From Bacilli bacterium (GTDB taxonomy: Bacteria; Bacillota_I; Bacilli_A; RF39; UBA660), in the NCBI GenBank assembly GCA_017441065.1, contig JAFSAI010000004.1:1-58494 (forward strand): a DNA stretch of 58,494 nucleotides. The letters run 5' to 3'. The notes below the pieces were generated by a model. The model did not search any database, was not told where the DNA came from, and saw only the letters and a program-made list of their open reading frames with translations. Below, piece after piece: positions 7,673 to 44,074 of the stretch; within the stretch, counting starts at the first letter, position 1, and every line of letters starts with the position of its first letter. A program made the position numbers and the translations under genes.

Positions 7673-7703
7673 AAAGTTAGTTCATTATTTTGAACTAACT
7701 TTT
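7673..7703 (-). terminator. Terminator of the Cys-rich repeat gene
   Basis: AAAAGTTAGTTCA and TGAACTAACTTTT arms, 13 bp, with T-rich DNA following on the minus strand. Confidence 0.75.
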
Positions 7704-9499
7704 CTTGTTTCTCCTGTTCTTTCCCAACCATCTAGGCTAGTTTCAGTACTCCATTTATATTTATATTTAGTTACTGTTTTTGTTGATTTTGTTGCTGCTA
7801 CTGAAGTAGTAGAACCTTTAGTACATTTTGCACTTGATCCAATTCCTACTTTTGTATAACCACTAGCACAAGTATATGTAGTAGATTTTGTAGCATCTAT
7901 AGTAGAACTTCCTGTAGATATACATTTAGTTCCATTTTTAGTATATCCTTTTGGACAACTATAAGTAGTTGTTTTAGTTGGATTTACTGTTTCTTTAGTA
8001 GTTTTTTGACATTTAGTACCATTTAATACATAACCACTTTCGCAATAATATTTTTTAGTTTCTGTTGCATTTTTAGTTTCTGTATTAGTTTTAGTTTTAG
8101 TACATTTTGTACCACTTAATGTATAACCACTAGCACAACTATAAGTTGTATTAGCAGTAGCATTCTTAGTATCAGTACTAGAAGTAGTCTTAGTACATTT
8201 AATACCATTTAATGAATATCCACTAGGACAACTATAAGTTGTTTTTGGAGTAGCATCTACATCTTTATAAGATGATTTAGTACAATAATATTTATAATAT
8301 GTTCTTGTACATCCGCTGTATGTTGAACAAGCTTCTGTATAAGATCCACTATAAGAACATCCGTTGTATGTTTTTCCTTTATATGTTACATAACTTTGAT
8401 AGTATGAATTTGTAGAATTGATACGACAATATTTTCCATTAACTAAAGTACCTTTTGAACAACTATAAGTTGTATTAGCAGTAGCATTCTTAGTATCAGT
8501 ACTAGAAGTAGTCTTAGTACATTTAGTACCATTTAATGAATATCCACTAGGACAACTATAAGTTGTTTTTGGAGTAGCATTTTTAGTTTCTGTACTAGTA
8601 GTAGTTTTAGTACATTTAGTACCACTTAATGTATAACCACTAGGACAACTATATGTTGTAGTATATTTTGCATTTACAGATTCATTACTTGTTTTATAAC
8701 ACTTAGTATTTGAACCACTACCAGATTTTATATAACCACTAGGACAACTATAAGTAGTTGTTTTAGTAGCATCTATTGTACTTGTTTTAGTTTTAGTACA
8801 TTTAGTACCGTTTTTAGTATATCCAGAAGGACAACTATATGTTACATTTTTAGTAGCGTTTATTGTTTCGCTATCTGATTTTACACATTTTGTATTTGAA
8901 CCACTACCAGATTTAGTGTAACCACTAGGACAACTATAAACTGTTTCAGTAGCTTTATAAGCTTGTTTATATTGATATTCAATAGTAGTTTTTACTGGTT
9001 CACAAGTATTACTTTCACATAATTGATTACATCCTAATTCGATAGTAGTTTTTGCAACTTCTTTACCACAAACTAGAGTAGTAGTCATTGTGTATTTACC
9101 ATTATCATTTTTTGCTGTAACATAACTTGCTTCTGTATCACAAGTACTATTACCATATGAGAATGGTAAAATTAAACCTTTATCAATTAATTCTTGTAAA
9201 GTATATTTTATTGTCTTATTAGTAGCTGGTAATTCACTAACTAAGAAATATTCTTTAGCAGTATCATGGAAATATCTATAATTATCTATAAAAATTTCGG
9301 AATATGAGTTTGAGTTTTTTAATGTTTCTGTAACATTATTGTTAGGTTCATTTCCATAATCTACATTAATTGAGTTTGAATTATTTCTTGTGAATAACCA
9401 AATAATTAGGAAAATAACTGCAGCAACTGCTAAAATTAGTAGTCCTTTTTTAATTACGCTTCCCCAATCAATATTTCTTCTTGGTTCTTCTGTATACAT
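7685..9499 (-). CDS. Membrane-anchored Cys-rich tandem-repeat surface protein
   Basis: 604 aa. A short cytoplasmic tail (MYTEEPRRNIDWGS) precedes a single membrane helix at about 17-38, giving an N-in, C-out layout. An N-terminal globular part carries a few Cys (STCDTEASYV, GCNQLCESNTCEP). From about residue 178 there are ten copies of a roughly 30-residue unit, TTYSCPSGYTLSGTKCTKT with Ser/Thr-rich linkers, plus one enlarged unit in the middle. Each unit has two Cys about 10-15 residues apart, suggesting one disulfide per unit. The C-terminus is a basic KYKYKWS segment. I know of no function. A stalk or adhesin is the natural guess. It starts 1 bp after the stop of the coiled-coil gene, so the two form an operon. 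Confidence 0.75.
   Translation of the reverse strand: MYTEEPRRNIDWGSVIKKGLLILAVAAVIFLIIWLFTRNNSNSINVDYGNEPNNNVTETLKNSNSYSEIFIDNYRYFHDTAKEYFLVSELPATNKTIKYTLQELIDKGLILPFSYGNSTCDTEASYVTAKNDNGKYTMTTTLVCGKEVAKTTIELGCNQLCESNTCEPVKTTIEYQYKQAYKATETVYSCPSGYTKSGSGSNTKCVKSDSETINATKNVTYSCPSGYTKNGTKCTKTKTSTIDATKTTTYSCPSGYIKSGSGSNTKCYKTSNESVNAKYTTTYSCPSGYTLSGTKCTKTTTSTETKNATPKTTYSCPSGYSLNGTKCTKTTSSTDTKNATANTTYSCSKGTLVNGKYCRINSTNSYYQSYVTYKGKTYNGCSYSGSYTEACSTYSGCTRTYYKYYCTKSSYKDVDATPKTTYSCPSGYSLNGIKCTKTTSSTDTKNATANTTYSCASGYTLSGTKCTKTKTNTETKNATETKKYYCESGYVLNGTKCQKTTKETVNPTKTTTYSCPKGYTKNGTKCISTGSSTIDATKSTTYTCASGYTKVGIGSSAKCTKGSTTSVAATKSTKTVTKYKYKWSTETSLDGWERTGETRKVSSK
8250..8960 (-). repeat. Coding tandem repeats in the Cys-rich gene
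   Basis: Nearly identical DNA stretches recur within the gene. For example, the blocks at 8135-8240 and 8463-8570 differ at very few bases. This is the kind of array that grows and shrinks by recombination. Confidence 0.6.
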
Positions 9500-12951: not shown

Positions 12952-14637
12952 ATGAAAAATAAAAGAAGAAGATTTTATAACATAGCAATAGTATGCTTAG
13001 TAGTAATTGAAAGTATATTTATTTATCTATCATATAGATCATTTGGTAATAAAGAAATGATTTTGGATGAAGTTAATTTAACAGCTGGAAAGCCGGTTGA
13101 AAAAGATAATTTATTTGCTTTTATGATAGAACAAGAAAATGGCGAATATGTAAAAAGTGATTTAGATACTTGGCCAACTGATATGGTTTTCAATGCTGCT
13201 AAATCAGGGTGTATTGATGCTGATGGTAATACAATAGAAGGTGCATTAGTTTTTGATAATACAACACATATGGCAACATTAACTACTAATGCAACTGCAT
13301 ATTGTTATTTATATTTCAGTATTGATATGGCATTTACTTTCTATTTAGGAGGAAGTGATAATCCATCTCATACTTCAAGTACTGAAACACCGGTATATTT
13401 AAATTGGGATGCAACTGATGTAGTAGAATATTGTGTAACTAATACAGTAGGTACTGATAATTGTACATGGAAAACAGTTTCATCTAAACCAACTACAGGA
13501 ATTCATACATTAACTAGTGGTGATGATGTTAAAATAGCATATGCATATCTTAAAGATGAAGATGGCGCTATTTCAAAAAGAGTTCCGGATAGAATTATAT
13601 TAGATACAACAATTCCTGTTGTAACGAGTTTAACTAATACAGGTTATGGATTTGATTATATATCAGTACAAGTATCAGGAGCAGATGAAAGTGGTGGTAT
13701 TGCGAAATTTTATTATAAAATTGGTGATGGTGATTACGTTGCAAGTACTACAAATAGTTATAAATTTAGTGGTTTAACTCATGGTAATAGTTACGATGTA
13801 AGTGTATATATTGAGGATGTAGCTGGTAATAAGTCAGCAGTTGTTACAAATACATATTCTACTAAATCTAATGGTTTAGGAACAGCAATAGAAGCAGGAA
13901 TGTATAGATATCAAGGAACAGATGCAATGAACTATATATGTTTTGGTACTACAGTAAAAAGTGAATGTGTAGGAAAGACAGATGCATATATGTACAGAAT
14001 AATCGGAATAAGACCAAATGGTCAAATGAAATTAATCAAAAAAGAAGCACTAAATACTGGAGTAAAATGGTGGAGTGATTATACAACAGACGTAACATGG
14101 CCAAATAGTTTAATATATACAACAATAAACGGAAATGAATTCTTGTTAAGCGAAACATATGTGCCAACAGGATGGGAAAGTAAAATAGCAACAACAAGTT
14201 GGTATTATGGAGATACAACAAATAGTGGATCATATAAAGGAGAAACAATGTATCCAATAGAAAACCCATTCGGAGAATCAACAGCATCAAATAGATTCAC
14301 AAATACAGTAAGTGCTAAAATAGGGTTAATGTATATACATGATTATTACTATGCATATGCATCAGGCGGAGCCCCAGGAAGTTATAGTAATGCGAAAACA
14401 GCATGGATACATATGAGCAAAAACGATAGTGGAGCCCCATCAAGTTATGAATGGACAATGTCGCGTTACGGTTTGTATAGCGGTTATTACCGTGCGTGGG
14501 GTGTGCTTTCGGGCGGTGATGTCTTTAGGTATTATTTGATTTATGCTTATTCGGTTCGCCCAGTCTTCTATCTGACATCCGATGTAGAGATAATAGGTGG
14601 AACAGGAACAATAGATGATCCATTCTTAATAAGTTAG
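12952..14637 (+). CDS. DGR target protein 1, membrane-anchored with hypervariable C-terminal domain
   Basis: 561 aa with ribosome site GAAGGAGAG. Layout: a membrane anchor (about 8-27), the shared N-terminal domain (to about 125), an Ig-like unit beginning FTFYLGGSDNPSHT (about 126-210), a fibronectin-III-like unit (about 213-303), then the C-terminal domain shared by all paralogs (MYRYQGTDAMNYICFGT, MYRIIGI, LMYIHDYYYAYASGG). The last 60 residues hold the variable repeat at DNA 14463-14563, then SVRPVFYLTSDV. In this gene all ten AAT codons of template TR2 have become other codons (six Tyr, and one each of Gly, Leu, Phe and Ile), giving a ligand-facing surface rich in aromatics. Known DGR targets use a C-type-lectin fold for this. 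That fold is inferred here. The protein likely displays a changeable binding site on the cell surface. Confidence 0.9.
   Translation: MKNKRRRFYNIAIVCLVVIESIFIYLSYRSFGNKEMILDEVNLTAGKPVEKDNLFAFMIEQENGEYVKSDLDTWPTDMVFNAAKSGCIDADGNTIEGALVFDNTTHMATLTTNATAYCYLYFSIDMAFTFYLGGSDNPSHTSSTETPVYLNWDATDVVEYCVTNTVGTDNCTWKTVSSKPTTGIHTLTSGDDVKIAYAYLKDEDGAISKRVPDRIILDTTIPVVTSLTNTGYGFDYISVQVSGADESGGIAKFYYKIGDGDYVASTTNSYKFSGLTHGNSYDVSVYIEDVAGNKSAVVTNTYSTKSNGLGTAIEAGMYRYQGTDAMNYICFGTTVKSECVGKTDAYMYRIIGIRPNGQMKLIKKEALNTGVKWWSDYTTDVTWPNSLIYTTINGNEFLLSETYVPTGWESKIATTSWYYGDTTNSGSYKGETMYPIENPFGESTASNRFTNTVSAKIGLMYIHDYYYAYASGGAPGSYSNAKTAWIHMSKNDSGAPSSYEWTMSRYGLYSGYYRAWGVLSGGDVFRYYLIYAYSVRPVFYLTSDVEIIGGTGTIDDPFLIS
14463..14563 (+). 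repeat. DGR variable repeat VR1
   Basis: This 101-bp stretch aligns without gaps to TR2 (15724-15824). There are 14 differences, all at template A: ten to T, three to G and one to C. No other base differs. It sits in frame near the 3' end of the target gene, the classic VR position. The shared 3' edge is TCGGTTCGCCCAG. Beyond it VR1 and the template differ (TCTTCTATC against CCCACTATA), the expected contrast between the homing-initiation site and its template version. Confidence 0.95.
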
Positions 14638-14648
14638 AAGATTTCAAA

Positions 14649-14681
14649 ATCGCCCAGGGTGGCATTTGGCGCCCAGGCGAT
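14649..14681 (+). other. Post-VR hairpin 1
   Basis: An imperfect hairpin starts 11 nt after the stop of the target gene. ATCGCC (14649-14654) pairs with GGCGAT (14676-14681), and GGGTG (14657-14661) pairs with CGCCC (14670-14674). The left half (ATCGCCCAGGGTGGCATTTGG) is repeated exactly after the second target at about 22701. In the Bordetella phage DGR a hairpin just downstream of VR raises homing efficiency. A like role here is inference. Confidence 0.6.
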
Positions 14682-14687
14682 ATATAT

Positions 14688-14719
14688 AACACTCATTGTA
14701 AAACAATGAGTGTTTTTTT
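14688..14719 (+). terminator. Strong terminator after DGR target 1
   Basis: AACACTCATTGT and ACAATGAGTGTT arms, 12 bp, with a 3-nt AAA loop and a run of seven T. It separates the target-gene transcript from the TR1 transcription unit. Confidence 0.9.
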
Positions 14720-14729
14720 CAAAATGTTA

Positions 14730-15003
14730 TATAATAGATGTAGGTAATCTTGATAAAGAATTTACGCGTTACGGTGGCTCTAGTAGTTTCAATGCGTGGA
14801 ATGTGAATTCGAACGGTAATGTCAATAACAATAATTTGACGAATACGAATTCGGTTCGCCCAGCCCACTATAACTTGAATGATAGTATGGCTAAGGTTAT
14901 ACTTTTGGGAAGATAGAGGACAAAGATTATCTAGGAATTTTATTCCAAATTAAAAACGGAGATGGTTTATTTTACGAAATAACCTGTTACTCCGTTATTT
15001 TTT
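14730..15003 (+). ncRNA. DGR template RNA 1 (TR1 unit)
   Basis: An independent transcription unit with a TATAAT box at 14730-14735. RNA likely starts near 14742 and ends in a T-run at about 14997-15003. The template core is 14766-14863 (98 bp) and is flanked by the same GCGTTACGG and TCGGTTCGCCCAG ends as the VRs. The 3' part is a structured tail shared with TR2. It has a GGAAT/ATTCC hairpin (14934-14946). A terminal stem follows, with outer pairs AACGGAG/CTCCGTT and inner pairs GGT/ACC plus TATTT/AAATA around a TACG loop with one bulged T. Translation of the core gives many Asn codons (13 AAT or AAC), which are safe to randomise because changes at their adenines cannot create stops. No VR in this window derives from TR1. 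Confidence 0.88.
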
Positions 15004-15020
15004 GTGGAAAATTTTATTAG

Positions 15021-15068
15021 AAAAAAAGGAAATTAAAGAAAAAAGTTGTAAATATATATATGAGGAGG
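15021..15068 (+). promoter_or_regulatory. Shared accessory-gene upstream block (copy before the CdiA-C-like gene)
   Basis: An A-run, GGAAAT, then AAAGAAAAAAGTT and an AT-rich stretch. The first half is nearly identical to the blocks before the YhcG, ORF6N and KilA-N genes in this window. The end differs: GAGGAGG in place of GTGAAAGG. Confidence 0.55.
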
Positions 15069-15090
15069 TATTGATGTATGAAATTAAATA

Positions 15091-15627
15091 ATGAATAAAA
15101 ATTATATAGATGTAACAAAAGAATGGTTAAGGGAAGCTATACCTAATAGTCATAAAGTAGAAGAACAATTATATTATGAATCTGATGGTGTCAAATATGA
15201 AGTAGATGGTAAAAAAGTTGTATTAGACTATTCAAAAAAAGAAAGAGAAGTAGCTGAGTGGTTAGAAAATACTTTTGGTGGAGAAATAAAAATGATACCT
15301 AGAGTAAATTATCCTAAAAATATAATGACTCAAGATTATATTTTTAGAGGTATGAAATTTGATTTAAAAATAATAATGGGAAATGGAAATAAAACAATAG
15401 ATTCTGCATTAAAAAGTAAAAAAAATCAAGCTACTAATTTTATTTTGGATATAAGTAAAACTACATTGCCTTTAGAAAAAGTGAAAAATCAAATACAAAA
15501 GATTTATAGTTCTTATAATAGATTGTGGTTAAATATTATAATTTTAAAAGATGATAATAAATTAATATGCGTTTATAAAAGAAAAAAGAAGTTGACCACC
15601 AGTCCCAACAATATGGACCAAGATTAA
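15091..15627 (+). CDS. CdiA C-terminal-like (tRNA nuclease fold) protein between the two TRs
   Basis: 178 aa, soluble. From about residue 50 it resembles stand-alone CdiA-C-type nuclease domains: EREVAEWLENTFGGEIKMIPRV, then the DYIFRGMKFDLK core and KKNQATNFILDIS. These belong to contact-dependent toxins and phage head-associated proteins. The assignment rests on memory of the family pattern. No immunity gene is evident next to it. The ribosome site GAGGAGG ends at 15068, too far from the ATG. A five-codon mini-ORF (15074-15091) ends in TAATG and overlaps the start codon, so translation probably depends on reinitiation. It shares the upstream block of the palindrome-bearing genes. Its last codons lie inside a terminator hairpin (AAAGAAGTT with AACTTCTTT). 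Confidence 0.6.
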   Translation: MNKNYIDVTKEWLREAIPNSHKVEEQLYYESDGVKYEVDGKKVVLDYSKKEREVAEWLENTFGGEIKMIPRVNYPKNIMTQDYIFRGMKFDLKIIMGNGNKTIDSALKSKKNQATNFILDISKTTLPLEKVKNQIQKIYSSYNRLWLNIIILKDDNKLICVYKRKKKLTTSPNNMDQD

Positions 15628-15689
15628 CTTCTTTGTAATTATATTATATGATTTTTAACAAAAATATGCAATGAATTTTTAAATTATTA

Positions 15690-15975
15690 TATAATTATGA
15701 TAGGTAGTCTTGAAAAATGATATGCGTTACGGTTTGAATAGCGGTAATTACCGTGCGTGGAATGTGAATTCGGACGGTGATGTCAATAGGAATAATTTGA
15801 ATAATGCTAATTCGGTTCGCCCAGCCCACTATAACTTGAATGATAGTATGGTTATGATTATACTTTTGGGAAGATAGAGGACAAAGATTATCTAGGATAT
15901 ATTTATCCGAATTAGAAATGGAGATGGCTAATTTTAAGAAATTGCCTAGATACTCCATTATTTTATTTGGCAATA
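15690..15975 (+). ncRNA. DGR template RNA 2 (TR2 unit)
   Basis: A second template unit with a TATAAT box at 15690-15695 and a likely start near 15702. The template core is 15724-15824 (101 bp), the exact donor of VR1 apart from adenine sites. The core reads in frame as RYGLNSGNYRAWNVNSDG and so on, with ten AAT codons. The tail has the same fold as TR1 with changed bases but kept pairing: GGATA/TATCC (15895-15908), outer AATGGAG/CTCCATT (15917-15923 and 15953-15959), inner GGC/GCC and AATTT/AAATT with the same bulged T and a TAAG loop. The T-tract after the stem is weak (TTATTTTATTT), so some read-through into the RT operon is possible. Confidence 0.92.
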
Positions 15976-15994
15976 TTTGTGAGTGTGTTATAAT
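15967..15994 (+). promoter_or_regulatory. Promoter of the DGR protein operon
   Basis: TTGGCA (15967-15972), a 16-bp spacer and TATAAT (15989-15994). The leader then carries an AGGAGG (about 16008-16013) with no ORF behind it and about 70 nt before the first gene. Confidence 0.55.
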
Positions 15995-16082
15995 CTAATT
16001 AAGACTAGGAGGTGTAGTAGTAATATAGAATATAGATAGAATTTATGAGACATGCGATAAAATAGATAGAAAGTAAAAAAAG

Positions 16083-16472
16083 GTGGTCAAAATAAAAAAA
16101 GAGTTAATTGAACTCAGAAAATCTGGCAAATTTTATAATTCTTTTGGTGATGATGCGATAATTTTACATTACCTTATGGGATATAAAATAGTAGCAGAAA
16201 AAGGAGGCGTTGGGTTTCCTGAAACTGCTTTTAATAAAGTTATAAATGCTTTGGAAGATGAAGAGATATCTTACAAAGTATATGAAAAAGATAATATTAT
16301 TGCAGAAAAAGACTTTAAGAAATTAAATAGTTATAAAAGTATTTTAAAAAAAGGAATAAGTGAATTATCTGTAGAAGAAAGATTTAATAAAATTGAAAAG
16401 AGAATACGTGAGTTAAATGCTAAAGAGCTTGACTATGTTCTTGAAGTAATAGAGAATGCAATATCACACTGA
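16083..16472 (+). CDS. DGR accessory protein resembling MutS domain I
   Basis: 129 aa from a GTG (GTGGTCAAAATA). The segment FYNSFGDDAIILHYLMGYKIVAEKGGVGFPETAFNKVINALEDE follows the pattern of the MutS N-terminal mismatch-recognition domain (GDDA, a gly-phe-pro turn, a helix, then a strand ending ISYKVYEKD). A helical C-terminal tail follows (from about 85). MutS-domain-I-like proteins are known DGR accessories in some lineages. The role may be binding TR-VR mispairs or the template RNA. It opens the operon with avd and the RT. Similarity is judged by eye only. Confidence 0.6.
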   Translation: MVKIKKELIELRKSGKFYNSFGDDAIILHYLMGYKIVAEKGGVGFPETAFNKVINALEDEEISYKVYEKDNIIAEKDFKKLNSYKSILKKGISELSVEERFNKIEKRIRELNAKELDYVLEVIENAISH

Positions 16473-16494
16473 AAAATTTTTAATAATAAAAAAC

Positions 16495-16812
16495 ATGAAA
16501 AAATTTATATTAGGATTAGAAACCTTATTGGTTAACTTTCCTAAAAAAGAATTTTTAACAAAAGATATGATATATAAAGATGCATTAAAAGTTTTAGAAT
16601 TAGTATATGTTGCGAATGATATAGAAGATTTGAAAGATAAAAGAAATATACAAGTAGAAATATTAGGTAAACTTAATATGCTTGATTTTTATTTAGAAAG
16701 AGCTTATAAAAAGAAATATATAAATGAAAAGCAATGTATGGCTAAATCTAATGAATTAGAACAAATAAGTAAAATGGTATACAAGTGGATAAAAAGTGAA
16801 AGAGTATGCTAA
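16495..16812 (+). CDS. avd: Avd-like four-helix-bundle DGR accessory protein
   Basis: 105 aa from the ATG at 16495. The upstream residues of the longer frame overlap the MutS-like gene and look spurious. The sequence is almost all helix: GLETLLVNFPKKEFLTKDMIYKDALKVLELVYVAND, LKDKRNIQVEILGKLNMLDFYLERAYKK, then NEKQCMAKSNELEQISKMVYKWIKSE. Length, basic charge (many Lys), the order of helices and the closing WIK segment fit the Avd family. Avd forms a pentameric barrel that binds the RT and template RNA and is needed for cDNA synthesis. Its 3' end overlaps the RT start by 17 bp, a typical DGR arrangement. Confidence 0.85.
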   Translation: MKKFILGLETLLVNFPKKEFLTKDMIYKDALKVLELVYVANDIEDLKDKRNIQVEILGKLNMLDFYLERAYKKKYINEKQCMAKSNELEQISKMVYKWIKSERVC

Positions 16813-17923
16813 TTTAAATACTATTTTAGATTTATTTGAATCTGAAATATCTAAAAATGTAAAAAATAAACATAAAGTATATATGTTTGAAAAAAATAAG
16901 TTTCAAAATATAAATCATATAATAAATGTTCTCCAAAGTGGTAATTATAATGGTGGAAAATATAATATATTTTTAATTAAAGAACCTAAACATCGGATTG
17001 TAATGGCTTTAGATATTAGTGATAAAATAATAAATCATTTTATAGCAAGATATGTTTTAGAAAAGAAATTAACTAAATATTTAGATCCAAGAAATATTGC
17101 AACTAGAAAAAATATGGGGACAGATTGTGGAATAAAAATGTTGAAAAAATATTTGGAATTAAATAAAAAATATGGCGAGTTTTATATTGCTAAATTAGAT
17201 ATTAGTAAATATTTTTATTCAATAGATCATGAAGTATTAAAAGAATTAGTTAGAAATAAATTAGATGAAGATGAATATAAATTTTTATGTTTAATAATAG
17301 ATAGTACAAATAGAGAATATATTAATTTAAAGATTCAAGATATTAAAGATAAGTATTTAGATAAACATCCAAAATTTGAAAAAGAAATGAATGCAATACC
17401 ATTTTATAATTATGGCAAGGGATTACCTATAGGTAATATGACTAGTCAATTTTTATCAATATTTTATTTATATGAATTAGATCATTATATAGTTCATAAT
17501 TTACATATCAAACATTATATTAGATATATGGACGATTTTGTTTTAATTCATCATGATAAAAAAGTGTTAGAGAATGCTGTAAAAGAAATTGAATTTATAT
17601 TAAGTAATAAATATAAGTTGAAACTTAATTCAAAAAAGACTAAAATAGTGTCAGCTTCTGAAGGATTTTCTTTTTTGGGGTATACTTATAAAGTAATTAA
17701 TAAAAAAACAATAGTTAAATTACGTAAAGAAAGTTATGAAAGAATAAAAAAGAGAATAAAAGAAGTATATTATATGTATGAATCAGGATTTATTGATTTT
17801 AATAGTGCATTTTGTTCAGTTATGTCATATTGGTATAATAGAAAATATGGTAGTCAAATGAAAGTTCGAAGAGTAATAAATAGATATTGGTTTGATCGGG
17901 TACATAATGGGATACAAAAATAG
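16796..17923 (+). CDS. Diversity-generating retroelement reverse transcriptase
   Basis: 375 aa from a GTG inside the end of avd (translational coupling). RT motifs are in order: FLIKEPKHRIVMALDISDKIINH (motifs 1-2), AKLDISKYFYSIDH with D135 (motif 3), GLPIGNMTSQFLSIFYLYELDH at 209-230 (motif 4, with the SQ signature that sets DGR RTs apart from group II intron RTs, which have QG), YIRYMDDFVLI with YMDD at 244-247 (motif 5), LKLNSKKT (motif 6) and FSFLGYTY (motif 7). There is no maturase or HNH domain. It copies the TR RNA into cDNA, misreading adenines, and the product replaces the VR. It serves two TR units here, and by inference more elsewhere. Confidence 0.97.
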   Translation: MKEYANLNTILDLFESEISKNVKNKHKVYMFEKNKFQNINHIINVLQSGNYNGGKYNIFLIKEPKHRIVMALDISDKIINHFIARYVLEKKLTKYLDPRNIATRKNMGTDCGIKMLKKYLELNKKYGEFYIAKLDISKYFYSIDHEVLKELVRNKLDEDEYKFLCLIIDSTNREYINLKIQDIKDKYLDKHPKFEKEMNAIPFYNYGKGLPIGNMTSQFLSIFYLYELDHYIVHNLHIKHYIRYMDDFVLIHHDKKVLENAVKEIEFILSNKYKLKLNSKKTKIVSASEGFSFLGYTYKVINKKTIVKLRKESYERIKKRIKEVYYMYESGFIDFNSAFCSVMSYWYNRKYGSQMKVRRVINRYWFDRVHNGIQK

Positions 17924-18194
17924 ATATGTATTTATAAAAAGAACATATCCTAATACAATTGTAATTTTTGAAAAAAATAATAAGTATATTGGTTATAAAG
18001 AAGAAAAAGAATTTTTAGAATTTCTCAATTTTAAAAAATTAAATGATTTAAATAAATTAAAGATAAATTACATTGTTATTAGAAATATGATAATATTAGA
18101 ACATAAGACATTTGATAAAAATATGTACAGAATCTATTATATGAGATTTAATTTATTTAAATTAGTTAATTTTATTCGTCAACGAAGACGTTAA
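17907..18194 (+). CDS. Small basic protein of unknown function at the end of the DGR operon
   Basis: 95 aa from the ATG at 17907, overlapping the RT end by 17 bp, so translation is probably coupled. It is rich in Lys, Asn, Ile and Tyr (KNRYVFIKRTYPNTIVIFEKNN, EFLEFLNFKKLNDLNK) and ends FIRQRRR. The last codons lie inside the 23-bp hairpin repeat. I do not recognise the family. Position and coupling suggest a DGR accessory, as a nucleic-acid-binding factor or a regulator. It could also be a chance frame, though the codon usage looks real. Confidence 0.5.
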   Translation: MGYKNRYVFIKRTYPNTIVIFEKNNKYIGYKEEKEFLEFLNFKKLNDLNKLKINYIVIRNMIILEHKTFDKNMYRIYYMRFNLFKLVNFIRQRRR

Positions 18195-21513: not shown

Positions 21514-22689
21514 ATGTATAGGAGAAGTGTACCTAAAATAGGTATAATTTTTTATGTATGTCTGCTAGTAATAGTGGAAATTTTTGCGTTATTTTTAATG
21601 TATAAAAGTAGCAATAATAAAAATGCTAATTTAGCTACAGTAGACTTAAAAGGTAATATAGTTAATAATGATATGTTTGCGATAATGTTAGAACAAAGTG
21701 ATGGAACATATAAAGAAGATAAAAGTAATACATGGCCAACAGATGGATATACATACAATGCGTCTATGTCAGGATGTATAGATATAAATGGTAATAAACT
21801 AGATGGAGTACTTACATATGATGCTACAAATAATATAGCTACAGTAGATACCGGAAATACTAGTTATTGTTATTTGTATTTTAGTATGCCAAATGCTGGA
21901 GAATATTTACTTAAAAATCCAACATCAGGATTAAATAATATAACATTAGAAGCCGGAATGTATAGATATCAAGGAACAGATGCAATGAACTATGTATGTT
22001 TCGGAACAACAGTAAAAAGCGAATGTGTAGGAAATACAGATGCATATATGTATAGAATCATAGGAATACAAGAAAATGGCCAAATGAAATTAATCAAAAA
22101 AGAAGCTCTAAATAGTACAGTACAATGGTGGAGTGATTATACAACAGATGTAACATGGCCAAATAGTTTAATATATAAGCATATAAATGATACAGAAAAT
22201 ACAAATAATTATTTAAAAAATACAACATATGTGCCAACAGGATGGGAGAGTAAAATAGCAACAACAAGTTGGAAATATGGAGATTCAACAAATAGTGGTA
22301 ATTATGATGGACCAACAATATATGCAACAGAAAATGCTTGGACAGATACAGAACCCGCAAAGATAGGATTATGGTATTTATCTGATTACTACTATGCTTA
22401 TGCAAGTGGAGGAGCACCAGGAAGTTCTAGTAATGCCGTAACAGCATGGATCCATTTAAGTAAAAATGATACAAGTGCACCAAGCACTAGTTATGAATGG
22501 ACAATGTCGCGTTGCGGTTATGATGACGATTATAGCTCTTACGGTGCGTGGGCTGTGTATTCGAGCGGTTCCTTGTATAGCAATTATTTGTATAATGCTC
22601 TTTCGGTTCGCCCAGTATTCTATCTGACATCTGATATAAGAATAACTGGAGGAACAGGAACAATAGATGATCCATTCCTAATAAGTTAG
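21514..22689 (+). CDS. DGR target protein 2, membrane-anchored with hypervariable C-terminal domain
   Basis: 391 aa. Residues about 10-29 are the anchor, then the shared N-terminal domain (NNDMFAIMLEQSDG to SYCYLYFSM). It goes straight into the C-terminal domain with no Ig-like units (MYRYQGTDAMNYVCFGT, MYRIIGIQENGQ, IGLWYLSDYYYAYASGG, SYEWTMSR). The variable repeat (22509-22615) then leads to SVRPVFYLTSDI. Long stretches match target 1 at DNA level up to and past the stop codon. The VR is 6 bp longer than VR1 and its framework differs at non-adenine sites from both templates here, so its donor TR must be elsewhere or lost. It encodes many Tyr, Ser and Asp. It lies about 3.6 kb past the RT gene. 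Confidence 0.88.
   Translation: MYRRSVPKIGIIFYVCLLVIVEIFALFLMYKSSNNKNANLATVDLKGNIVNNDMFAIMLEQSDGTYKEDKSNTWPTDGYTYNASMSGCIDINGNKLDGVLTYDATNNIATVDTGNTSYCYLYFSMPNAGEYLLKNPTSGLNNITLEAGMYRYQGTDAMNYVCFGTTVKSECVGNTDAYMYRIIGIQENGQMKLIKKEALNSTVQWWSDYTTDVTWPNSLIYKHINDTENTNNYLKNTTYVPTGWESKIATTSWKYGDSTNSGNYDGPTIYATENAWTDTEPAKIGLWYLSDYYYAYASGGAPGSSSNAVTAWIHLSKNDTSAPSTSYEWTMSRCGYDDDYSSYGAWAVYSSGSLYSNYLYNALSVRPVFYLTSDIRITGGTGTIDDPFLIS
22509..22615 (+). repeat. DGR variable repeat VR2
   Basis: 107 bp bounded by GCGTTGCGG and TCGGTTCGCCCAG. The last part (TTG TAT AAT GCT CTT TCG) matches TR2 with adenine-only changes, and TAC to TGC at the start fits too. The centre needs non-A changes and 6 extra bases against TR2 (9 against TR1). 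It is therefore a VR whose donor is not in this window. Confidence 0.8.
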
Positions 22690-35989: not shown

Positions 35990-36018
35990 ATTATTATAAG
36001 ATAAAGGATATGATATAT

Positions 36019-38715
36019 ATGCGTTACAATAAATTTTCGAAATTTTTAGTAATTATACTTATAATAATTGAATGTGTAACTTTATATTTAATGGGAATGA
36101 GTTTATCTTCAAAAAAAACAATTAATTTATTAGAATTAAATAGTGAAGAAATATTAACTTCTGATGTTTTTGCAATAATGTTAGAACAAGAAGATGGTAC
36201 TTTTAAAGAATCAGAAGATGCAAAATGGCCAACAGAAGGTTATATATATAACCATGAATTGTCTGGATGTACAGATAAAAATGGCAATACTTTAAATGGT
36301 GTGTTAACTTATAATGATACGACAAAGGTGGCAACATTAGATGCGAAAACTACAGTTAGCTGTTTTTTATATTTTAATGTTATTAAAGAACCTCCATCTG
36401 ATTTTACTTTTTATTTAGGTGGTAGTAGTAATCCTGAATATTCTGTAACAGCAAATACAAAAGCATATTTATCATGGGAAGATGAAGATATAATTTCATA
36501 TTGTATTACAGATGTAAATAATAGTAATAGTTGTACTTGGAATGAAATAAGCGGTTTAACAAATACGGTTGATCATGTATTAAATAATACACAAGGGACT
36601 CAAACTTGGTATGTGTTTATAAAAAATAAATATAATTTAATTTCTAATCCTATGGTTGATTCAATAATATACGATTCTGTTGCTCCAGTAATAGGTAATT
36701 TTTATTTAGGAGGAAGCGATGAACCCGACTATACAACGGGTGTAAGTACATTAGCTTACTCAACATGGAATGCAACTGATGTATCAAAATATTGTATAAG
36801 TACGACAAATAGTAGTGAAAATTGTGGTTGGAAATCTACTACTGGTACAAGTTTGAATGAATCTTATAGTTTAAGTAGTACAGAAGGTACTCAAACTAGA
36901 TATTTATTTTTGATGGATAAAGCTGGTAATATATCATCATCAAAAAGCGATTCGATAATATATGATAAGACAGCACCAACAATAACAACATTTTATTTAG
37001 GAGGAAGTACTAATCCAACGTATGCAACAAGTACTAGTACAACATCTTATATTACTTGGAGTGCAACTGATGTGGCAAATTATTGCGTAAATACCACTAA
37101 TAATAGTGCAAGTTGTAGTTGGAAAAGCGCGAGTGGAACAAGTACAAATGCATCATATACATTGAGTAGTACAGAAGGTAGTCAAACACGATATGTATTC
37201 TTAAAGGATAAAGCAGGAAATATATCATCATCAAAAAGTGATTCAATAACACTTGATTCTACGTCTCCAAGTGTAACGACATTTTATTTAGGAGGAAGTA
37301 CTAATCCAACATATACAACAAGTACTAGTACAACATCTTATATTACTTGGAGCGCAACTGATGTGGCGAATTATTGCGTAAATACTTCAAATAGCAGTTC
37401 AAGTTGTAGTTGGAAAAGTGCAAGTGGAACAAATGCAAATGCATCATATACATTGAGTAGTACCCAAGGTAGTCAAACGCGATATGTATTTTTAAAAGAT
37501 AAAGCAGGAAATGTTTCTACATCTAAAAACGACGCGATAACATTAGATTCTATTTCTCCTGTAGTAACTAGTGCATCTGACACAACGAAAGGAACGATGA
37601 AAGCTAGTGTAACAGAAAATGGTAGTGGTATTAGTCAGGTTTGTGTTAATAGTACCTCTTCTTCTACTAGTGGGTGTACTTGGGAATCAATGAGTGCTGT
37701 TTCATTTACAACAACAAAAAAAGTAGCTTCTGCTGGAACGTATTATTTGCATGTTAAAGATAAAGCAGGTAATGTAGGTCATAGTGGTGCAGTAGCACTA
37801 ACCATAGTACCACCTAATTTATATTTAATATGTAAAGGCATGACTTTATCAGCATGTTTAAGTAATTCTGATAAAGTTGCTGAAATTCAAGAAATTGCCA
37901 ATATGAGTGATGGGTTATCTGGTGGTATGTATAGATATCAAGGAAAAACAGGAACGGTCGAAAATAATTATATGTGTTTTGGAACTACAAGTACATCAAC
38001 TTGTACAAGTAATCCAGGAAGATATATGTATCGTATAATTGGAGTTAATTCTAGTGGCCAAATAAGACTTATTAAGAAAACTAGCATAGGAGACTTAATG
38101 TGGCATACTGCTGCAGAAACTAGTGTAACATGGCCAAGTAGTAATTTAAAAAGTCTTATTAATGGCTCAACTTATCTTACTAATACAACTTATGTTCCTT
38201 CTGGATGGAGTAGTAAAATAGCAACTTATGCTTGGAAATATGGTAATATTGAACACGCTGATTATACTGGTTCATCAAGAACGCCTCAGGATGCGGTTAA
38301 TGGTAATAGTTATCATGCTGATAATTCATATGCTATAGAAAATGCATTTACTAGTACTTCATCATATAAAGTAAGTTTAATGTATGTAACTGATTATTTC
38401 TATTCTCATAGTGATACAGGACCGGGAACTGGAACATCAGCTAGTACATCGTGGCTTCATCTTCTTAATAATGAGGCATCTAATAGTCCTGCTGAATGGA
38501 CAATGTCTAGAAAAGGACATAATGGTACATATAATTTAGTATGGCAAATTACAGTAGATGATGTTTATCCGAATTTCAATGGTTTAGTATGGGGTGCTTG
38601 GTATGGTTATATGTGTGATAATGGTTGTGCTGTAAGGCCTACATTCTATCTAACAAATACGTTGCAAATAACTGGTGGTAATGGAACAATAACTAGTCCA
38701 TATATATTATCGTAG
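36019..38715 (+). CDS. Large surface paralog with Ig-like repeats
   Basis: 898 aa from the ATG at 36019 (AAAGGA 10 nt upstream). Membrane anchor, the shared N-terminal domain (VFAIMLEQEDG), then four Ig-like units of about 95 residues starting FTFYLGGSSNPEYS or like, each with an ITWSATDVANYCVNT strand and a paired Cys. Two of the units (about 36980-37230 and 37270-37520) are close to identical in DNA. A fifth shorter unit (about residues 515-600) precedes the C-terminal domain (GGMYRYQGKTG, MYRIIGVNSSG, MYVTDYFYSHSD). The region corresponding to the VR (SRKGHNGTYNLVWQITVDD and on) leads to AVRPTFYLTNTLQ. It does not match either template. Confidence 0.75.
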   Translation: MRYNKFSKFLVIILIIIECVTLYLMGMSLSSKKTINLLELNSEEILTSDVFAIMLEQEDGTFKESEDAKWPTEGYIYNHELSGCTDKNGNTLNGVLTYNDTTKVATLDAKTTVSCFLYFNVIKEPPSDFTFYLGGSSNPEYSVTANTKAYLSWEDEDIISYCITDVNNSNSCTWNEISGLTNTVDHVLNNTQGTQTWYVFIKNKYNLISNPMVDSIIYDSVAPVIGNFYLGGSDEPDYTTGVSTLAYSTWNATDVSKYCISTTNSSENCGWKSTTGTSLNESYSLSSTEGTQTRYLFLMDKAGNISSSKSDSIIYDKTAPTITTFYLGGSTNPTYATSTSTTSYITWSATDVANYCVNTTNNSASCSWKSASGTSTNASYTLSSTEGSQTRYVFLKDKAGNISSSKSDSITLDSTSPSVTTFYLGGSTNPTYTTSTSTTSYITWSATDVANYCVNTSNSSSSCSWKSASGTNANASYTLSSTQGSQTRYVFLKDKAGNVSTSKNDAITLDSISPVVTSASDTTKGTMKASVTENGSGISQVCVNSTSSSTSGCTWESMSAVSFTTTKKVASAGTYYLHVKDKAGNVGHSGAVALTIVPPNLYLICKGMTLSACLSNSDKVAEIQEIANMSDGLSGGMYRYQGKTGTVENNYMCFGTTSTSTCTSNPGRYMYRIIGVNSSGQIRLIKKTSIGDLMWHTAAETSVTWPSSNLKSLINGSTYLTNTTYVPSGWSSKIATYAWKYGNIEHADYTGSSRTPQDAVNGNSYHADNSYAIENAFTSTSSYKVSLMYVTDYFYSHSDTGPGTGTSASTSWLHLLNNEASNSPAEWTMSRKGHNGTYNLVWQITVDDVYPNFNGLVWGAWYGYMCDNGCAVRPTFYLTNTLQITGGNGTITSPYILS
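36980..37520 (+). repeat. Tandem repeat encoding two Ig-like units
   Basis: Two units of about 285 bp align with few differences, for instance both carry ACATTTTATTTAGGAGGAAG and TATTACTTGGAG. Recent duplication, or exchange between copies, is likely. Confidence 0.7.
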
Positions 38716-42328: not shown

Positions 42329-44074
42329 ATGAATAGAAAGTTTGTAAGTAGGGTAATTCTGCCTATTTTAATTATAGTGGAACTAAGTTTCCTCTTTTTG
42401 ACATGGATGTCATATTCTAATAAAGATATAAAAGAAATAAAAGAAGAAAATAAAGTAAATAAAGAAATGTTCTCGATGTATGTAGAAAATAAAGATGGAG
42501 AATACGTTGAATATACAGATAGTGAATACTATCCAATAGGATTAAAATATTACTTTAATGAAGAAAGAAGTAATTGTACAGATAATAAAGGAAAAGTAGT
42601 AAGTAATGTAATATCATATAACAATAGTAAAATTACTGTATCAAGTAATAAAACATTATTCTGTTATTTGTACTTTGACTTAGATAAAGTACCACCACAA
42701 ACATTTACCTTCTACTTAGGAGGAAACACTAATCCAGAATATATAACTAGTACAAGTACCACAGCATATCTATCATGGACAGATAATGACATAGAAAGTT
42801 ATTGTATAAATACAGAAAACAATTCAAGTAGTTGTAATTGGATAAGTACAACAGGTAATTCAATAAACCCAAGTTATACAATAAGTACACAAGGAAGTAA
42901 TACAAGATATGCATTCATAAGAGATGCAGCAGAAAATATATCACCAGTAGTAAGTGATGTAGTATTTTTAGATAGTGTAGCACCAGTAATAACAAGCGCA
43001 ATTGATAGTGGTTCAGGAACAGCAAATGTAACAGTAACTGAGACAGGAAGTGGAGTATCACATGTATGTGTAAATACAAGTAGTTCATCAACAACAGGAT
43101 GTATATGGGATGAAGTAAGTGGAACAACATTTACAAGTACAACAGCAGTAACTATAACAGGTAACTATTATATTCATGTAAAAGATAAAGCTGGAAATAT
43201 AGGTCACAGAACAAGTGCTATAAGTATAGTCAAACCAGTACCAAGTTTGTATACATTATGTTCATCATACACAAATATGGGAACGTGTATGACAAGTGAA
43301 TACGGAAGTACAAAGATGCAAGAAATTGCTAATATAGGCTCAGATGCAGGAATGTATAGATATCAAGGAACATACAATGTGGTTGATAATAATTACATAT
43401 GTTTTGGTACAAATAATAAATCAACATGTACAGGAAACACAGATGCATATATGTATAGAATTATAGGTGTAGATTCAAGCGGTCAAATTAAACTGATCAA
43501 GAAAGAAGCGCTAAATACAGTAGTAAAATGGTGGAGTGCCTCAAAAGTAGATATACAATGGCCAGATAGTTTGATAAAATCAGCTATAAATAGCAGTTCA
43601 TTCTTAACAAATAAAACATATGTCCCAACAGGATGGGAAAGTAAAATAGCAACTTATGATTGGAAATACGGAGATACAACAAGTTATGGTAATTATAATG
43701 GTCCAACAATATATACAATAGAAAATGCATGGACAACTTCGGTAAATGCAAAAATTGGATTAATGTATATACATGATTACTATTATGCATATGCATCAGG
43801 AGGAGCCCCAGGAAGTTATAGTAATGCAAAAACAGCGTGGATATTTTTGGATAATAATGATGATACTGCTCCAAATCTTTCAGAGTGGATAATTACACGT
43901 ACTGGCGTTGATGGTAATTACTATGTTTTAAAGTTTATAAATAGTAATGGTAGTGTTAATGGTGATTATAATATGGACAACGATCGTTCGGTTCGTCCGG
44001 TCTTCTATCTGACATCCGACATAAAAATAACAGGTGGAACAGGAGCAATAGATGATCCATATATAATAAGTTAA
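42329..44074 (+). CDS. Surface paralog with DGR-type C-terminus and candidate VR3
   Basis: 581 aa with ribosome site AGAAGGGTTAAG. Anchor, N-terminal domain (MFSMYVENKDGEY to LFCYLYFDL), one Ig-like unit (FTFYLGGNTNPEYITS), a second partial unit, then the C-terminal domain very like target 1 (MYRYQGTYNVVDNNYICFGT, IGLMYIHDYYYAYASGG). The end is TGVDGNYYVLKFINSNGS and on to SVRPVFYLTSD. The DNA after 43989 (TCGGTTCGTCCGGTCTTCTATCTGAC) matches the VR1 3' flank but for two bases in the TCGGTTCGCCCAG core. Codon choice in the body is host-like (AT-rich) up to this end. Confidence 0.75.
   Translation: MNRKFVSRVILPILIIVELSFLFLTWMSYSNKDIKEIKEENKVNKEMFSMYVENKDGEYVEYTDSEYYPIGLKYYFNEERSNCTDNKGKVVSNVISYNNSKITVSSNKTLFCYLYFDLDKVPPQTFTFYLGGNTNPEYITSTSTTAYLSWTDNDIESYCINTENNSSSCNWISTTGNSINPSYTISTQGSNTRYAFIRDAAENISPVVSDVVFLDSVAPVITSAIDSGSGTANVTVTETGSGVSHVCVNTSSSSTTGCIWDEVSGTTFTSTTAVTITGNYYIHVKDKAGNIGHRTSAISIVKPVPSLYTLCSSYTNMGTCMTSEYGSTKMQEIANIGSDAGMYRYQGTYNVVDNNYICFGTNNKSTCTGNTDAYMYRIIGVDSSGQIKLIKKEALNTVVKWWSASKVDIQWPDSLIKSAINSSSFLTNKTYVPTGWESKIATYDWKYGDTTSYGNYNGPTIYTIENAWTTSVNAKIGLMYIHDYYYAYASGGAPGSYSNAKTAWIFLDNNDDTAPNLSEWIITRTGVDGNYYVLKFINSNGSVNGDYNMDNDRSVRPVFYLTSDIKITGGTGAIDDPYIIS
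43898..43999 (+). repeat. Candidate degenerate variable repeat VR3
   Basis: 102 bp, close to VR1 in length and position, ending TCGGTTCGTCCG where VR1 has TCGGTTCGCCCA. The inside does not align to TR1 or TR2 by adenine-only changes. It may be a retired VR or may answer to another template. Confidence 0.4.

Follow-up and report, generated by a model that had tools for sequence, protein, structure and literature searches.

We found that the window, i.e. the whole stretch of 58,494 nt that was analysed, carries a genuine DGR that is chromosomal and unusual in its type: one reverse transcriptase (RT) is accompanied by many autonomous templates (TRs) in trans. Our preferred reading, to which we assign a probability of roughly 0.86, is that a single operon serves dispersed, independently transcribed and structured TR RNA genes. 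The parts of the system, their conservation and the A-only pattern of both cis and trans pairs are apparent at the level of the sequence. The source is an uncultured gut bacterium whose relatives come largely from rabbits, and its genome is a fragmented MAG (1.21 Mb in 44 contigs, 95% complete, 0.49% contamination). The genome yielded a single match to the DGR RT and six TR RNA genes, of which the window and contig C7 contain two each and contigs C37 and C1 one each. Four of the six are thus remote from the RT, and the arrangement is not the one-TR cis cassette of BPP-1 with its single TR adjacent to the RT. The first-pass annotation had described a complete DGR with two separate templates. 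This is correct for the RT locus, where the pair accounts for two of the six TR genes genome-wide, and it understated the system, which extends to targets on other contigs, an RNA fold conserved across the genus and four further TR genes.

All features of the RT locus lie on the plus strand and follow the order target gene 1, TR1, a CdiA_C-type (contact-dependent inhibition) nuclease gene, TR2, a MutS domain I-like gene, Avd, RT and a second small gene. Target gene 1 (12952..14637) is an ORF of 561 aa with a putative N-terminal membrane anchor and a C-terminal variable domain, for which the structure model and the Foldseek search indicate a DUF6273-like fold. Its variable region VR1 (14463..14563) covers residues 504-538. 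The TR1 RNA gene (14730..15003) lies ~80 nt 3' of this gene, with TATAAT at 14730-14735, a leader from 14742 and a template core of 98 nt (14766..14863), followed by a structured 3' flank and a terminator. The TR2 RNA gene (15690..15968) has TATAAT at 15690-15695, a core of 101 nt (15724..15824), a structured 3' flank and a terminator. The whole elements span 14716-15014 and 15676-15990, respectively, and share 82% identity over ~300 nt. Both consist of TATAAT, conserved leader, template core, structured 3' flank and terminator, in agreement with the earlier description of two TR units that each have their own TATAAT box and terminator. The nuclease gene (15091..15627; PF18451, 2.4e-15) lies between TR1 and TR2. 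We rejected it as a part of the DGR; it is probably incidental, because a CdiA_C gene was observed in none of the RT loci of 16 relatives (0/16).

VR1 and TR2 align without gaps over 101 bp with 14 mismatches. All 14 occur at template As and none at any other base, with ten changes to T, three to G and one to C. If 14 positions were drawn at random from the 101, the probability that all of them hit the 27 template As would be 3.9e-10 (hypergeometric). In the template frame all ten AAT codons are altered in VR1, and in addition one GAC is changed to GGC. Both the gapless A-only alignment and the alteration of every AAT codon had been claimed before and were reproduced here. TR1 adjoins the VR1 gene but was ruled out as its template by 23 non-A mismatches, and we found no cognate VR of TR1 in the window or the assembled genome.

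Downstream of TR2 we identified a MutS domain I-like accessory protein (MSL; 16083..16472; PF01624, 1.5e-5), the Avd accessory protein (16456..16812; phrog_3206, 3.6e-17; NF033474 at 1e-9, which is below the curated cut-off) and the RT (16796..17923). The RT shows the motifs IGNMTSQ and YMDD and matches phrog_1423 (1.3e-72), and its best PDB match is 8ub7, Reverse transcriptase (2.2e-24). The searches of Pfam, NCBIfam, PHROGs and PDB confirmed the RT, Avd-like and MutS-domain-I-like genes that had been proposed at this place, and the locus qualifies as a DGR by its DGR-type RT, the accessory protein Avd and an A-only TR/VR pair. Across the 16 RT loci of the genus the MutS-I-like gene and Avd precede the RT in every case (16/16), the former lying upstream of the latter, and the second small gene (17907..18194) follows the RT in 14/16. 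For this 100-aa protein we obtained no significant family match (best MutS_I at 0.032, in 4 of 14 members). Its model (pLDDT 91) has MutS domain I as the top Foldseek match (probability 1.0, E 0.012), so the operon seems to carry two MutS-I-like proteins. The hhalign comparison between the two MutS-I-like families of the operon was not significant. In three relatives (G006, G027 and G022; loci L077, L083 and L084) the RT genes contain in-frame stops, which suggests repeated loss of the system.

An end-to-end alignment of 45 TR genes supports six helices, with 98.2% of the cells paired. Two-sided changes were observed in 25 of the 46 base pairs compared to only 4-8 in the controls, where the partners were slid by 1-3 columns. 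The closing helix, a stem of 10 bp, joins the 5' leader (AGGTAATCTT) to the 3' flank (AAGATTATCT) and thereby encloses the template. Variants of this stem compensate each other, e.g. GGTAGTTTT is paired with AAAACTATC. The 3' end of the RNA is formed by a hairpin and poly-T. A -10 box with the exact sequence TATAAT is present in 55 of 64 TR genes, and in 52 of those it precedes the leader by 7 or 8 nt; the -35 box is weak. The support for the fold comes from covariation, as single-strand folding of TR2 alone was not better than that of shuffles (z = -0.87). A search of Rfam with the TR RNA gave no match at E <= 1. In BPP-1 the spacer folds and recruits the RT-Avd complex (PMC12875486), and by analogy the 3' flank of the TR is likely to be the binding and priming site for RT-Avd.

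The template cores showed a different kind of constraint. We analysed 32 TR cores from three genomes. Within each genome the core lengths are equal modulo 3, and none of the 32 cores has a stop in the target frame, with stops occurring in the other frames. Adenine accounts for ~42% of codon positions 1 and 2 and for ~1% of position 3. To judge from these sequences, the templates hold coding information without being translated. Within each genome the cores show about twice the divergence of the RNA flanks (e.g. 0.194 versus 0.093; 67 of 68 pairs), so the set of templates is itself diversifying while the RNA scaffold is held.

We defined a confident TR-VR pair as one of the same length with at most three non-A mismatches and found six such pairs. 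The source genome contributes TR2-VR1 and a TR on C7 with a VR on C38 (2 non-A and 11 A mismatches). In the relative G014 a single TR on C4 pairs with VRs on C6, C2 and C17 (0, 2 and 3 non-A; 10-14 A), and in G020 a TR on C11 pairs with a VR on C44. Over the six pairs 81 of 91 mismatches occur at template A (Fisher P = 1e-36), and five of the six join different contigs. The template As of these pairs number 95, 90 and 2 at codon positions 1, 2 and 3. All VRs compared (12/12) are closer to the TRs of their own genome than to those of three other genomes. The assembly of G014 (L148-L163) is 94% complete and has 11 TR genes, and no RT was found in it. One of its TR-VR pairs shows no non-A mismatch, an indication that the absence of the RT is an assembly gap.

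In the source assembly the exact VR is missing for four of the six TRs (TR1, TRc, TRd and TRf) and the exact TR for four of the six VR-like repeats. As many contigs break inside target genes, assembly gaps are the likely cause, and decaying elements could be another. Decay is the core of one alternative explanation, according to which only TR2 and VR1 work and TR1 and the remote TRs are duplicates left behind by recombination between surface-protein genes. The four TRs without an exact VR would fit this explanation, and so would the position of some TR genes 40-90 nt 3' of target-family genes with a non-matching VR, as if both had moved together. However, all six TRs retain promoter, leader-flank stem, terminator and an open target frame, covariation is strong across the paralogues, and both the C7 TR and the G014 TR have partners on other contigs, so we consider this explanation improbable. 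We also applied a mosaic test to the VRs. Segments of a second TR accounted for their mismatches to the best TR more often than random placement predicts. Template switching at VRs was rejected as the cause, since left-out TRs treated as VRs behaved alike (35% versus 41% explained, P = 0.2). The mosaic signal is segment sharing among the cassettes and gives no evidence for switching.

Our reading of one operon serving many TR genes would work as follows. The operon (MutS-I-like, Avd, RT and second MutS-I-like) would serve the dispersed TR genes, each of which would yield an RNA of about 265 nt. The 5' leader would pair with the 3' flank, so that the template is enclosed within the RNA, and the flank would end in the terminator. 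The RT-Avd complex may then recognise the conserved 3' flank and copy the template, making its errors at adenines; the resulting cDNA would replace the VR of any target gene in the genome with matching ends. Members of a large surface-protein family anchored in the membrane would thereby come to display a repertoire of variable binding loops that differ in length. What we infer here is transcription, RNA-protein recognition, activity at present and a role in adhesion or as a receptor. More tentatively, the TR genes might form a library of interchangeable templates. As the cassettes share both ends and the reading frame across loop lengths, any TR could overwrite any VR, which would combine cassette switching with adenine hypermutation. 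We regard this extension as possible though doubtful; if true, it would in effect be programmed antigen variation built on reverse transcription.

The covariance model of the TR 3' flank that we used to search for TR genes recovers exactly the six in this genome. In the relatives it detected 14, 12, 11, 8, 6, 4 and fewer TR genes. Among 38 genomes of the genus 16 have both RT and TR, two TR only, one an RT fragment only and 19 neither (Fisher P = 1.5e-7). Within the sample searched, relatives of the RT are present in 7 further genera of the family. G062, which belongs to another genus, has five TR-like repeats in a run on C25 (L280, about 1100-2504) and others on C23 and C9, and its RT is located on C38. 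A pattern scan of GTDB contigs matched only records of uncultured Bacilli from samples called 'Lapin' (a name that points to rabbit) and a single uncultured Mycoplasma.

Gut phages commonly carry DGRs, and the target fold resembles phage DUF6273 proteins, as would be expected if a prophage-borne DGR diversified phage receptor-binding proteins. However, the window is core chromosome with cell wall and division genes, the TR pattern had no match in 2.9 million viral contigs, the RT shows <35% identity to the best phage RTs, and both the TR genes and the targets are distributed among many contigs; we find a prophage origin very hard to believe. That the binning of mixed strains produced the multiple TRs, an artefact which a fragmented MAG might invite, is just as unlikely given that several TRs share single contigs (two on C26 and two on C7 ~23 kb apart; likewise in G020, G001 and G034), that contamination is 0.49% and that the pattern recurs in many independent MAGs.

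Known DGRs nearly always have one template beside the RT. In the Bordetella phage BPP-1 the DGR has a single TR, which lies between avd and brt together with a folded spacer (PMC12875486). The system described here resembles it in the DGR RT (best PDB match 8ub7), Avd, the A-specific differences between TR and VR and the structured RNA downstream of the TR. In contrast to BPP-1 it is chromosomal and has two putative MutS-I-like proteins. Each of its TRs stands alone as an RNA gene that has a promoter of its own, a terminator and a stem closing the 5' on the 3' side, and 6 to 14 such copies are scattered over the genome. The chromosomal DGRs of Treponema denticola, cyanobacteria and Thiohalocapsa PB-PSB1 act in trans on remote VRs of surface or sensor proteins, mostly with one TR per RT locus for several targets or with whole loci duplicated (PMC4891356, PMC7517822, PMC10907252). 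Remote VRs acted on in trans are a shared feature, whereas in our case it is the template RNA that has been multiplied and dispersed without the RT. More than one TR and several VRs per system also occur in DGRs from a survey, e.g. two TRs and six VRs in Stenotrophomonas sp. SKA14 (PMC6642488); in this survey we found no account of a conserved family of TR RNA genes that are remote from the RT and transcribed independently. Action in trans, targets at remote sites and, occasionally, several TRs have hence been described before (PMC4891356, PMC7517822, PMC10907252, PMC6642488). In the open-licence literature searched we found no description of many RT-remote TR RNA genes per one RT, nor of the TR RNA fold. 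The system would demonstrate that an autonomous and structured RNA gene, present in multiple copies and acting in trans, can serve as a DGR template, and that the repertoire of templates diversifies as well. It also provides a covariation-supported RNA model with a leader-flank stem for studying template recognition by RT-Avd, and an example of a host-associated bacterium in which a single mutator feeds a large surface repertoire. Searches restricted to RT neighbourhoods miss most templates in such genomes.

Finally, we characterised the target family. In target 1 an N-terminal hydrophobic segment follows basic residues, which suggests a membrane-anchored surface protein. In the model of its domain (pLDDT 95) the VR occupies residues 197-231 of 254 and is thus C-terminal. 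Foldseek matched this model to DUF6273 phage proteins (4.6e-7), to the IgA peptidase of Thomasclavelia ramosa (1.7e-6) and weakly to C-type lectins. The C-terminal domain was matched about 35 times in this genome and as many as 74 times in a relative, and some of the matches, though not all, contain a VR. Target gene 2 (21514..22689, plus strand) is a paralogue with 76% identity to the target 1 domain and its own VR (22509..22615). The best TR for this VR is on contig C1, with 7 non-A mismatches, and no exact TR was found in the assembly. A search for a conserved hairpin motif after the VR genes returned only a post-stop motif common to two genes. Further paralogues of the family occur in the window at 65-1333, 36010-38715 and 42329-44074, and on the minus strand at 7685-9499 we observed a protein with many repeats of the type YSCPSGYT.KNGTKC.
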